From an uncultured Kiritimatiellota bacterium (GTDB lineage Bacteria > Verrucomicrobiota > Kiritimatiellia > RFP12 > DVOR01), in assembly GCA_944389545.1 (NCBI GenBank), contig CALXMT010000014.1:1-56500 (forward strand): a stretch of DNA of 56,500 bases. Direction: 5' to 3'. This document shows positions 13,332 through 30,120 of this stretch, piece after piece. Below the pieces are notes generated by a model. That model saw only the letters and a program-made list of their open reading frames with translations. It had not been told where the DNA came from and searched no databases. Positions within the stretch are counted from its first letter, which is position 1, and each line of letters opens with the position of its first letter. Position numbers and translations under genes: made by a program.

Positions 13332-13987
13332 GATGGACTCCTTGGGTTGCGAGAGAGGGAATCATGGGGCCACCCATAAAAGAACCTCTCTCTATCTCCA
13401 CAGGGGGCCTTAGGATGCCTTGCAAGAAGATAGGGAGAGGCAATGCGCATGCGCGCACTCCACTTCCCATGACATCCTGCTAGAAAGTTCCTAAGTTTCC
13501 TGTGATGTCGATGGTTGCGTAGTCGCAATCAATCTGCGAAGGCTCTCCCTTCGCGTGCCACATAGTATAGCACATCCATCCCGAAACGTTACCCCCTTTG
13601 GAGATTTGCAATCCTGTTCGGGGAAAATGGGAACCGCAAAGACGCAAGGAGAGGCGCGAACCGCTTCGGGCTCCAGCGGTCGCTCTGCGGCTTCGCCGCT
13701 GACCGCGACCGCCGCCCTCCGTTTCGCGCCTTGAAGTTGTAGAGGATGTGGGGCGAAGCCCCTCCGTAAAAGCTGAACTTCCAAGCGTCCAAACTTCCTC
13801 ATCCCCCTTTTGAGCGCCCCTTCAGGGGCGCGATAGCGTGGAAATCCCAAGGGCGGCGCGACCAACGGGAGCGATGGAGCCCGCAGGGTTTCCACGCAAG
13901 ACCGTCTTCGCGGTAAAACTTCCCCGGACACTACTGGAAGATTTGCAATCCTGTTCGGGGAAACTTTCCCTAGACAGTGTTGGGAAA
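13332..13987. repeat. Repeat tract upstream of Sel1 gene
   Basis: No gene. An inverted GCGAAACGGAGGGCGG module covers about 13600-13735 (hairpin GCGGC/GCCGC), then a CCAAACTTCC-like run. The long GATAGCGTGGAAATCCC module (about 13808-13975) begins with the hairpin GCGCCCC-TTCA-GGGGCGC. CCGGACACTACTGG and CTAGACAGTGTTGG ends close it. A near copy of the long module lies at about 52055-52170, and inverted copies lie near 17620-17730 and 48840-48950. Confidence 0.7.
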
Positions 13988-27125: not shown

Positions 27126-27657
27126 GCAAAAACACCTCTTCTTCGTCATTTTTGCCCTCGGTTTTCCAATAGCGTCCGGGGAAAATGGAGACCGCAAAGA
27201 CGCAAATCTTGCAGGAAAGGTGGGGCGCTAACGCCGGGCGCACGGTCGTGCGCCCTCCCGCGCCTTTGCCAAAGATTTGTTATGCGACTTCTCTAAATCT
27301 CAATCAACTCTTTCATATCTATTCTGATGCCAACTTTCATAAATCTGCCATTGGATAAAGAAGACGGCGAACTGCCGTGTCGCTTGCTTGCTTCCCTATC
27401 CGCGGCCACTTGATGGTTCGAGGAGAGAGACTCCGAGGGATGACTTTTGCTATACTGGTGGCACGTTGCGGGTGAGCCGCAGTCTATTGTTTGCGCTTTT
27501 GCGTAGACACGTTACCTTCTGCGAAACGTAGGAAATTTCATAGGAAAGGGACAGACGAGTCTAAAGCAAGGCGTGCCGTTTTGGCACGTCTTCTTGTTGC
27601 GTCCCTTCCTGGCTTCCTACGGCCTCGCAGAAGGTGTGATAAGGAGGCGTGCTTTTT
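27126..27657. other. Intergenic leader region before methyltransferase gene
   Basis: A GTCCGGGGAAAATGGAGACC repeat with a GGGGCGCTAACGCC element lies at about 27173-27245. The rest is lower in G+C than the neighbouring operons. TATACT at 27451-27456 is a possible -10 for the methyltransferase, giving a leader of about 200 nt. That leader contains a CGTGCC-GTTTT-GGCACG hairpin (27572-27588) followed by a T-rich stretch. No convincing small gene is seen. Confidence 0.4.
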
Positions 27658-28608
27658 ATGGCTAAGAATACCGGACTGAACAAGGCCAACAAGGCGAAGA
27701 AGGATGAGTTTTATACACGTCTGGAGGACATCCAGCGGGAGTTGTCGCATTATCGCCAGCACTTTAAGGGAAAAACGGTGCTCTGTAACTGCGATGACCC
27801 GCGCGTCTCCAACTTCTTCCATTACTTTGCGATGAACTTTGAGGTCTTGGGGTTGAGGAGGCTAATCACCACGTGCTATAAGAATCAGGAACCTGACCTT
27901 TTTAGCATGAACACCTATGATCAAGCCATTTGGCTGGAGTATCTGGGGGATAAGAATGGGAATCGGGTGCCCGACCCCGAGGAAATTGGCATTCGCTATT
28001 TCAAGGGCGACGGGGACTTTCGTAGCCAAGAGTGCATTGAATTGCTGAAACAGGCTGATATCGTCGTCACCAATCCGCCTTTCTCTTTGTTCAGAGAGTA
28101 TCTCGCCCAACTGATTGAGTACGACAAAAAGTTCCTAATTGTCGCCCACCAGAACGCCTTTACTTATAAGGAGGTTTTTCCGCTTTTTATGAACAACAAG
28201 ATTTGGCTGGGATATGGCTTTCCTGGCGGGGCAGGCCATTTTATCTCAAAATATGAAGATGTCGCGGTGGCCGGTGACCATAAAGAGGGCATGATTCGCG
28301 TCTCGGGCGTTACATGGTTGACCAACTTGGAAATTCCCAAGCGCCATGAGAGTGTCATCCTTTACAAGAATTACTCTCCTGAAGAGTATCCCACCTACGA
28401 CAACTACCCCGCCATTGAGGTGAGCAAAACGGCAGAAATACCAATGGACTACGATGGCATGATGGGTGTGCCAATCACCTTTTTGGATAAGTACAATCCC
28501 GATCAGTTCGAGATTGTGGGGAATGAATACACGCTAGGCATTGAGAAGGGCCGGGTCTATGTGAACGGCGAACGGAAGTACAGTCGTATCTTCATCAGGA
28601 GGAAGTGA
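27658..28608 (+). CDS. EcoRI-type adenine-specific DNA methyltransferase
   Basis: The 316-aa protein matches the EcoRI-methylase family (N6-adenine methylation). A Lys-rich N-terminus (NKANKAKKDEFYTRLEDI) precedes the SAM-site region CNCDDPRVS (43-51) and the catalytic NPPF (139-142) in DIVVTNPPFSLF. AAGGAGG at 27641-27647 fixes the ATG at 27658; an upstream GTG is too close to it. It is joined to a DUF262-HNH gene 1 nt downstream. There is no EcoRI-like endonuclease, so the HNH protein is the likely restriction partner. The recognition sequence is unknown. Confidence 0.9.
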   Translation: MAKNTGLNKANKAKKDEFYTRLEDIQRELSHYRQHFKGKTVLCNCDDPRVSNFFHYFAMNFEVLGLRRLITTCYKNQEPDLFSMNTYDQAIWLEYLGDKNGNRVPDPEEIGIRYFKGDGDFRSQECIELLKQADIVVTNPPFSLFREYLAQLIEYDKKFLIVAHQNAFTYKEVFPLFMNNKIWLGYGFPGGAGHFISKYEDVAVAGDHKEGMIRVSGVTWLTNLEIPKRHESVILYKNYSPEEYPTYDNYPAIEVSKTAEIPMDYDGMMGVPITFLDKYNPDQFEIVGNEYTLGIEKGRVYVNGERKYSRIFIRRK

Positions 28609-28609
28609 G

Positions 28610-29692
28610 ATGGATATCACGTTGAAAGAGGTAAGCGTCAGGGAGCTGACGGCGGGTTATTGCGATGATGGTGAGCAGGGGGTGCGCGGTTATGCGGGGA
28701 AACTGGATATCCGGCCGCCTTATCAGCGGGAGTTTGTCTACAATGACGCCCAGCGCGAGGCGGTGATTGACACGGTAACGAACGGTTATCCGCTGAATGT
28801 GATGTATTGGGCGGACAGTGAGGATGGTACCTTTGAGGTGATCGATGGGCAACAGCGCACGTTGAGCCTGTGCCAATACGTGGATGGCGTCTTCGCGCAT
28901 AACATGCGCTACTTCCATAATCTGACGAAGGATGAGCAGGAGCAGATTCTGGATTATAAGGTGATGGTCTACGTCTGCAAAGGGACGGACAGTGAGAAGC
29001 TGGCTTGGTTTCGCATCATCAACATCGCGGGCGAGGAGCTGACGGACCAGGAGTTGCTCAATGCGGTCTATAGCGGGCCTTTCGTGACGGATGCGAAGCG
29101 GCATTTCAGCAAGCAGGGGTGTCCAGCCTATAAGCTTGCTTCGGATTATCTTTCTGGAAGCGTGGTGCGGCAGGACTATCTGGCGACGGCGTTGGCGTGG
29201 ATTTCCAACGGTTTCGGCGAGGGTTATCTGGCCACCCATCAACACGATCCGAACGCCAATGCGTTGTGGCTCCACTTTCAGAATGTCGTCAATTGGGTGC
29301 GGGCGACCTTCCCGAAGTATCGCAAGGAGATGAAAGGTGTGGACTGGGGCAACCTCTGGCGGCGCCACCATGAGCGTCAGTTGGATGTGGCGGCCCTGGA
29401 ACAGGAGGTCAAGCGCTTGATGGCCGACAGCGACGTGCAGAAAAAGAAGGGTATCTATGCCTATGTGCTGGATGGCGATGAGCGTCATCTGAACCTGCGC
29501 GCCTTCGACGACAACACCAAGCGCGAGGTGTACGAACGTCAAGAAGGCATCTGTCCCCACTGCAAGAAGCACTTCCCCATCGAAGAGATGGAGGCCGACC
29601 ACATCACACCCTGGTCGCAAGGTGGCCGCACCATCGCCGAGAACTGTCAAATGCTCTGTCGCGCCTGCAACCGCCGCAAAAGCGACAAGTAG
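28610..29692 (+). CDS. DUF262 (GmrS/DndB-like) protein with C-terminal HNH nuclease
   Basis: A 360-aa two-domain protein. The N-terminal DUF262 domain (about 1-230) has PPYQREFVYN (36-45) and the DGQQR motif (79-83), used for NTP-dependent activity in GmrS-type restriction proteins. The C-terminal HNH domain has zinc Cys pairs 315/318 and 350/353, the catalytic DH at 330-331 and Asn345. AGGAGG lies 7 nt before the ATG, and the gene follows the methyltransferase stop by 1 nt, so this is a compact methylase/nuclease operon. By analogy it may cut DNA lacking or bearing a modification; the direction is not readable from sequence. Confidence 0.88.
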   Translation: MDITLKEVSVRELTAGYCDDGEQGVRGYAGKLDIRPPYQREFVYNDAQREAVIDTVTNGYPLNVMYWADSEDGTFEVIDGQQRTLSLCQYVDGVFAHNMRYFHNLTKDEQEQILDYKVMVYVCKGTDSEKLAWFRIINIAGEELTDQELLNAVYSGPFVTDAKRHFSKQGCPAYKLASDYLSGSVVRQDYLATALAWISNGFGEGYLATHQHDPNANALWLHFQNVVNWVRATFPKYRKEMKGVDWGNLWRRHHERQLDVAALEQEVKRLMADSDVQKKKGIYAYVLDGDERHLNLRAFDDNTKREVYERQEGICPHCKKHFPIEEMEADHITPWSQGGRTIAENCQMLCRACNRRKSDK

Positions 29693-29918
29693 TAAAAGTT
29701 TTTCCTAGAGCGTCTTGCGTGCGGTAGCACGCCCTTAATCTGCTCAAAATCTGTGAAATCTGCGGTTCCATCATTCTGGCAGTTCTGCCGGCGGTAGCCG
29801 GCCCCTAATCGGCTCCAATCGGCGTAATCGGCGGTTCCCTTGTGGGGGCCATCGTCGTCCTATATGTCCGCCTGTGGGGTGCAGGGTGGGCGATGGAATC
29901 CTAGCGGGTGCCCACGCG
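29693..29918. repeat. Two AATCTGC-type modules
   Basis: The first copy has hairpin GCGTGC-GGTA-GCACGC (29717-29732). The second has GCCGGC-GGTA-GCCGGC (29787-29802) in an otherwise parallel context that ends AATCGGCG instead of AATCTGCG. A TCGTCCTATATGTCC fragment follows. Confidence 0.75.
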
Positions 29919-30120
29919 GACCCTATAGTGGTTGACCTTCGACCACTATAGGGTCTGGCATTGGACCACTATAGGGTCTGGCCCCCGACCACTATAGGGT
30001 CTGGCGTTGGACCACTATAGGGTCTCGCATTGGACCACTATAGGGTCTGGCATTGGACCACTATAGGGTCTCGACCTCGACCACTATAGTGGTTGACCTC
30101 GGACCCTTATAGGGTCTGAG
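29919..30120. repeat. 23-bp direct-repeat array (nine units)
   Basis: Units 2-8 start at 29941, 29964, 29987, 30010, 30033, 30056 and 30079, exactly 23 bp apart: a conserved 16-mer GACCACTATAGGGTCT plus 7 variable bases (often GGCATTG). Unit 1 (29919-29940) carries the core in reverse orientation (GACCCTATAGTGGTT), unit 8 is a full palindrome (GACCACTATAGTGGTT) and unit 9 is GACCCTTATAGGGTC. The array lies between convergent genes, just after the DUF262-HNH gene. It resembles iterated protein-binding sites; no gene is present. Confidence 0.9.

Follow-up and report, generated by a model that had tools for sequence, protein, structure and literature searches.

Exchangeable recognition domains combined with a constant nuclease are a known pattern of Type I and Type III restriction-modification (RM) systems; in an orthodox Type II system, a methylase that changed its target without its nuclease would expose the host. 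Long acquired operons, including those for surface glycans, can be placed under promoter-proximal leader control, as in the EAR, put RNA, RfaH/ops, and LoaP systems. In the GmrSD family, DUF262 is a ParB/Srx-like domain with the UTPase motif DGQQR, and DUF1524 is the nuclease (PMC4619093; PMC12707154). Here, we describe a stretch of 56,500 nucleotides from an uncultured Kiritimatiellota bacterium (assembly GCA_944389545.1, contig CALXMT010000014.1), hereafter “the window,” which carries a methylase gene (M), a nuclease gene with DUF262 and HNH domains (R), and a structured leader RNA ahead of both.

On balance, we favor by a little over even odds the view that this is a compact mobile RM unit in which M, through an exchangeable block, aims R, with both genes placed behind a structured leader switch. 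The parts that go beyond the known gene pair are the specificity apparently supplied by the methylase and a new leader RNA family, and the most unusual of these is the leader RNA.

The gene pair

The two genes are:

27658..28608, + strand: M, EcoRI-type adenine-N6 methylase gene (316 amino acids [aa]; PF13651, E 5e-129; PADLOC MTase_II)
28610..29692, + strand: R, DUF262-HNH nuclease gene (360 aa; PF03235 and PF01844; PADLOC REase_II PDLC03418, 1.7e-136)

M is a full-length EcoRI-type methylase, scoring 430.9 bits against PF13651 vs a curated cut-off of 26.4, and its motifs DEFYT, CDDP, and NPPF are invariant in 28/28 homologues. R combines GmrSD_N/DUF262 (PF03235, aa 34-154) with a C-terminal HNH domain (PF01844, aa 315-360); its DGQQR is invariant in 28/28 homologous pairs, and its catalytic HNH residues D330, H331, N345, and N354 do not vary among the 27 homologues that have letters there. 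A preliminary description of this locus had proposed that M is joined to a DUF262-HNH nuclease in place of an EcoRI-like endonuclease, and these family matches bear it out. It was also right about the gene coordinates and the 1 nt spacing (TGA-G-ATG), about the retention of DGQQR and the HNH residues in two genes that are intact by sequence, and about a base composition below that of the neighbors (guanine-cytosine content 48% in M and 56% in R, vs 63% across the window).

Rare adjacency of the homologues, which had been named beforehand as grounds for abandoning that description, is not what we found. With adjacency defined as R and M places on one strand no more than 600 bp apart, R adjoins M in 41 of 45 places in a sample of 388 genomes of the phylum. 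Among relatives on viral contigs, M lies on the same strand as R in 78 of the 80 loci fetched; in the remaining two, R starts no more than 151 bases from a contig end. The two genes are thus adjacent as the cognate genes of an orthodox Type II system are. One locus, L040, has the reversed order, with R before M; its M resembles one group (up to 71%), whose R shares only 46% identity with the R of L040.

Both genes match PADLOC models for Type II (PDLC03297 / PDLC03418) over nearly their full length, and pairs of a methylase with a DUF262-HNH protein are frequent in plasmid annotations, so the pairing itself is already catalogued and not new. The unit is larger than first described: DNA homology with relatives, and with a second unit of the same genome, begins at ~27443, by a promoter-like box, and extends as far as the stop codon of R, and the unit is therefore the leader plus two genes. 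That second, paralogous unit (L016 6155-8201; G000:C1:114154-116197) is 77% identical in M and 78% in R and has the same leader type, and the R of a relative, L006, which probably belongs to another genome of the genus (G023), is 94% identical.

In a PDB sequence search, credible matches were limited to the HNH part of R, and M had none. Because the AlphaFold models of R and M are poor (8-9 sequences; mean predicted local distance difference test [pLDDT] score 64), the structural matches to ParB/sulfiredoxin, HNH, and BrxU (best E 1.6e-3) should be taken as supportive only. An RNA-guided nuclease, to which IscB/Cas9-like HNH matches of R might point, was considered and rejected; the similarity is confined to the HNH domain, and the RNA is not tied to the nuclease.

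Exchange of the methylase block and the source of specificity

The evidence on specificity concerns one segment of M:

28171..28353, + strand: exchangeable block of M, putative target-recognition segment (aa ~172-232; 40-49% identity where M cores are 94-98% and R about 90-99% identical)

The exchange pattern is seen in at least three lineages. In loci L037 and L038, R is 99% and the M core 98% identical, vs 40% for the block; L011 and L012, on two contigs of one Bacteroidota metagenome-assembled genome (MAG), share 99% of R over aa 20-360, 94% of the core, and 44% of the block; and for L042 and L044 the values are 90% for R, 94% for the core, and 49% for the block. In all three clean pairs, DNA identity falls and recovers abruptly at the block edges. 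Weaker cases are the window with L013, and L032 with L033, and the last ~33 residues of M are variable too. Similar blocks also recur in distant backbones, as the L037 block is 75% identical to its nearest relative, in a methylase with a 63% identical core, and the L038 block 76% identical to its own, in a methylase with a 59% identical core. No segment of R follows the M block beyond what the M core explains (partial r ≤0.16 in 78 nonredundant pairs), with the exception of R aa 1-30, beside the exchange edge (partial r 0.26).

Since the block is exchanged while R stays nearly identical, since similar blocks sit in distant M backbones, and since no R segment tracks the block, we conclude that target choice is probably supplied by M, following the logic of Type I and Type III systems. 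The simple Type II scheme implied by the preliminary description is correspondingly disfavored, the recognition block of M having been exchanged with R unchanged. In the literature searched, which left most subscription journals and REBASE outside, this exchange pattern is not described.

Under our preferred reading, M would find and methylate its site through the exchangeable block, and R, which has no recognition module tracking that site, would most likely be a nucleotide-controlled cutting subunit acting together with M. The specificities of methylation and cutting would then change together, that is, Type I/III logic in a two-gene unit, presumably directed against phages. It is important to remember what weighs against this. 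The target-recognition label of the block comes from the exchange pattern and from position, not from a solved complex, and the AlphaFold model has a pLDDT of 64; differing M blocks could in principle read the same site; the clean exchange cases are three, plus the weaker ones; and, as L011 and L012 lie in a single MAG, both methylases could protect there.

Two other accounts of the pair have to be considered. If the system were orthodox Type II, R alone would recognize and cut the unmethylated site while M protects it, and all members of the family would have to share a site, or have compatible ones, although their M blocks diverge. PADLOC files both genes under Type II, and the strict adjacency and 1:1 pairing of M and R fit such a scheme, but blocks 40-49% identical beside R proteins about 90-99% identical, with no R segment tracking the block, do not, and we consider it fairly unlikely. 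Alternatively, R could be a modification-reading nuclease in the manner of GmrSD, BrxU, or SspE, blind to the motif and responding to modified bases or to the presence or absence of N6-methyladenine (m6A), with M marking the host or being a partner only through its mark. A motif-blind R would tolerate exchange of the M block, and R has a DUF262 with DGQQR as in GmrSD and a weak structural match to BrxU, among others. However, near-universal pairing with one methylase family is atypical of Type IV enzymes, and R lacks the combination of DUF262 with DUF1524 that marks GmrSD Type IV enzymes, having no DUF1524 match and an HNH domain (PF01844) instead; this account, too, we judge unlikely. Nor is R filed as a Type I or Type III member, because only the GmrSD_N and HNH families score above the curated cut-off: the recognition domain on the modification side is exchanged independently of the nuclease, as in those types, but R is not a helicase-motor nuclease subunit.

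A leader RNA with two competing folds

The elements of the leader in the window are:

27448..27456, + strand: TGCTATACT, an extended -10-like box at which the conserved unit starts in alignments of relatives (A1, A2)
27466..27482, + strand: 5' hairpin P0 TTGCGGGTGAGCCGCAG of the leader RNA (compensatory stem changes; loop motif in 46/53 copies)
27506..27660, + strand: core of the structured leader RNA (model R1), consisting of nested helices P1-P4 and a terminal strand and reaching the ATG of M (window search: 138.6 bits, E 4.6e-30; covariation)
27583..27603, + strand: anti-Shine-Dalgarno (anti-SD) strand, the P4 3' arm and following bases GGCACGTCTTCTTGTTGCGTC
27633..27653, + strand: terminal strand with the Shine-Dalgarno (SD) sequence AAGGAGG (27641-27647), then TTTT to 27657

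The preliminary description had touched on this leader only in passing, as one with a hairpin before the genes; the hairpin is real, and the leader folds far more stably than its shuffles (z -6.9). Six copies went into a covariance model, R1: one came from a different family of the order and the others, among them that of the window, from the genus. The G151 leader, whose identity with the paralog's leader is complete or almost so, was excluded. Across an alignment of 38 distinct copies, pairing holds in 94% of cells and two-sided changes occur in 35 of 37 pairs, with a covariation score of 0.767 vs 0.251 in shuffles and no more than 0.155 with partners slid; the alignment was fitted to the R1 model, which favors the structure of that model, although both controls are far lower. 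A box of the TKSTATNNT type, a candidate promoter, precedes 39 of the 53 nonredundant genus copies, mostly at the same distance from the leader, and P0 is a conserved promoter-proximal hairpin with a 5-base loop.

The R1 model finds 21 copies of the leader in this genome and matches at E≤1 in 69 of the 388 phylum genomes. Beyond the phylum, the specificity of the model is judged from viral loci (430 kb in all), where its one match precedes M in L204. A search of 4227 Rfam models around the operon returned none in the leader, the one match being a below-threshold CRISPR repeat inside the M gene, and none was found at E≤1 in 13 further leader loci. Together, these results strongly support a new structured RNA family, which is not described in the literature searched, although that search did not cover most subscription journals.

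What gives the leader its likely role is a second, competing helix. In the window, the terminal strand (27633-27653) forms 21 uninterrupted pairs with the strand that starts as the P4 3' arm. In a swap test on the 53 genus copies, the mean duplex energy was -32.8 kcal/mol with a copy's own partner vs -23.3 kcal/mol with the partners of other copies, and in 34 copies of other genera it was -26.7 vs -18.3 kcal/mol; none of 2000 permutations reached the own-partner value in either set, and the three strand pairs taken as controls were flat. The last 14 nt include a U-run of four or more in 45/53 genus copies, vs 3.2% in the background, the paired strand of the genus copies contains SD-like bases, and an ATG stands exactly at the leader end in 36 of the 53, in 30 of them with a long frame. 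As the terminal strand, with its SD and U-run, pairs with the apical arm, a terminator/anti-SD switch is implied: we find a conserved structure directly upstream of coding regions together with a mutually exclusive terminator/anti-SD helix, as in cis-regulatory leaders.

In the working model of the switch, M and R would be expressed behind the leader, whose nested P1-P4 hairpin would form first and leave the ribosome-binding strand free. The P1-P4 form can fold before the terminal strand is transcribed, and its fold energy is -99.3 kcal/mol, vs -78.4 kcal/mol with the competing helix enforced. Were P4 opened by some factor or event, its 3' arm would pair with the SD strand, and the long helix with its U-run would stop transcription, hide the SD, or both. 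The simplest reading is a switch that is on by default and off when P4 is opened, with both direction and trigger deduced from the folds. Against it stands that no start codon directly follows some of the copies, most of them from outside the genus, so the SD would not always be the regulated element.

The genes behind the leader bear on its function. In the genus, the first downstream genes are mainly restriction-modification genes (EcoRI-M, Eco57I-type M, HsdM, C5 methylase, and Mrr-ResIII) and surface-glycan or envelope genes (GtrA, glycosyltransferases, acyltransferases, MBOAT, FrhB, PEP-CTERM, and LRR), and several have no family match. Beyond the genus, lectin-like/peptidase, acyltransferase, and EcoRI-M genes recur. 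As a control, the longest frames upstream of leader copies belong to scattered families, with none restriction-related among the 25 listed. A leader specific to RM was rejected, given that the R1 model found it before many other genes, and leader-peptide attenuation was likewise rejected, there being no ATG in the leader ahead of that of M.

Could the leader act otherwise? It might be a processive antitermination RNA (EAR- or put-like) or the site of a specialized elongation factor, keeping polymerase running through long acquired operons, with the terminal helix secondary. Surface-glycan operons are among its targets, as for EAR and the RfaH/LoaP systems, and P0 is of a fitting kind, but there is no Rfam match, and a search for an RfaH/LoaP-type partner found only one NusG-family gene in the genome. 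The terminal strand is, moreover, under selection for pairing and ends in a U-run, which suggests local control; we regard this alternative as doubtful. An independent small RNA that stops at the U-run and only happens to neighbor the gene behind it would agree with the terminator-like 3' end and with the copies outside the genus that often lack an ATG at their end. We hold it to be very unlikely, as it does not fit the exact placement of the ATG in the genus, the SD-like bases in the paired strand, or the function shared among downstream, not upstream, genes. A terminator/anti-SD switch remains our preferred reading of the leader.

Further leaders and one repeat complete the picture. The window holds one more copy:

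13375..13509, - strand: second, weaker leader copy (46.1 bits, E 1.3e-8), with an AUG at its end, ahead of a 167-aa frame that matches no Pfam family

A second leader type (type B, model R2) lies upstream of seven M-R pairs elsewhere in the phylum (L022, L025-L029, and L031); its strands look like anti-anti-SD, anti-SD, and SD, and it is multi-copy in several of those genomes. As the R1 and R2 models score overlapping stretches in L034, L037, and G009:C26, types A and B may form one superfamily. In L007 and L010, strongly folded leaders (z -5 and -10) lie upstream of M with no convincing match to the type A model. In L110, L117, L081, L128, and L149, contig ends are at most a few hundred bases away from leader copies, which suggests strain-variable or repeated DNA downstream. 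Just after R, at 29918-30118, a 23-bp unit, GGACCACTATAGGGTCTGGCCTT, is tandemly repeated, in 8.8 copies; the genome contains its core, ACCACTATAGGGTC, 110 times and a reversed control not once, and the core is also found after the paralogous R (L016 8262-8349).

Relation to known systems

If it is true that R takes its target from M, a large group catalogued as “Type II” has been mis-assigned, and a small nuclease is at hand whose specificity could be changed by swapping one methylase block. The leader family, for its part, links surface-glycan genes with restriction systems through a single kind of switch, and makes testable how these bacteria restrain costly acquired defense and surface genes. 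More tentatively, and with considerable doubt, we suggest that one RNA switch family provides shared control of phage-facing genes (restriction, surface glycans, and envelope) across the bacterial class, with infection or the status of transcription or translation as its possible signal, and that the EcoRI-methylase/DUF262-HNH pair is a separate restriction class, a ParB-like, nucleotide-gated nuclease aimed by an exchangeable methylase.

Compared with the EAR, put RNA, RfaH/ops, and LoaP systems, the leader is likewise promoter-proximal, with surface-glycan operons among its targets; it differs in its three-strand arrangement of P4, anti-SD, and SD/U-run, in standing before restriction genes as well, and in lacking an Rfam match. 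With EcoRI restriction-modification, the locus shares a full-length member of the M.EcoRI family (PF13651), although its R is DUF262-HNH, not EcoRI-like, and its M block is exchanged without change in R. The PADLOC entries PDLC03297/PDLC03418 say Type II, whereas the exchange pattern argues for methylase-supplied specificity. GmrSD, BrxU, and SspE have a DUF262 with DGQQR and a His-Me-finger nuclease domain, as here, but R carries HNH PF01844 instead of DUF1524 and is paired with an m6A methylase. With Type III (Mod/Res) and Type I systems, finally, the locus shares an exchangeable recognition domain on the modification side and a constant nuclease; in place of a helicase-type Res or HsdR, it has an R of 360 aa, made of DUF262 (ParB/Srx fold, PMC4619093) and HNH.
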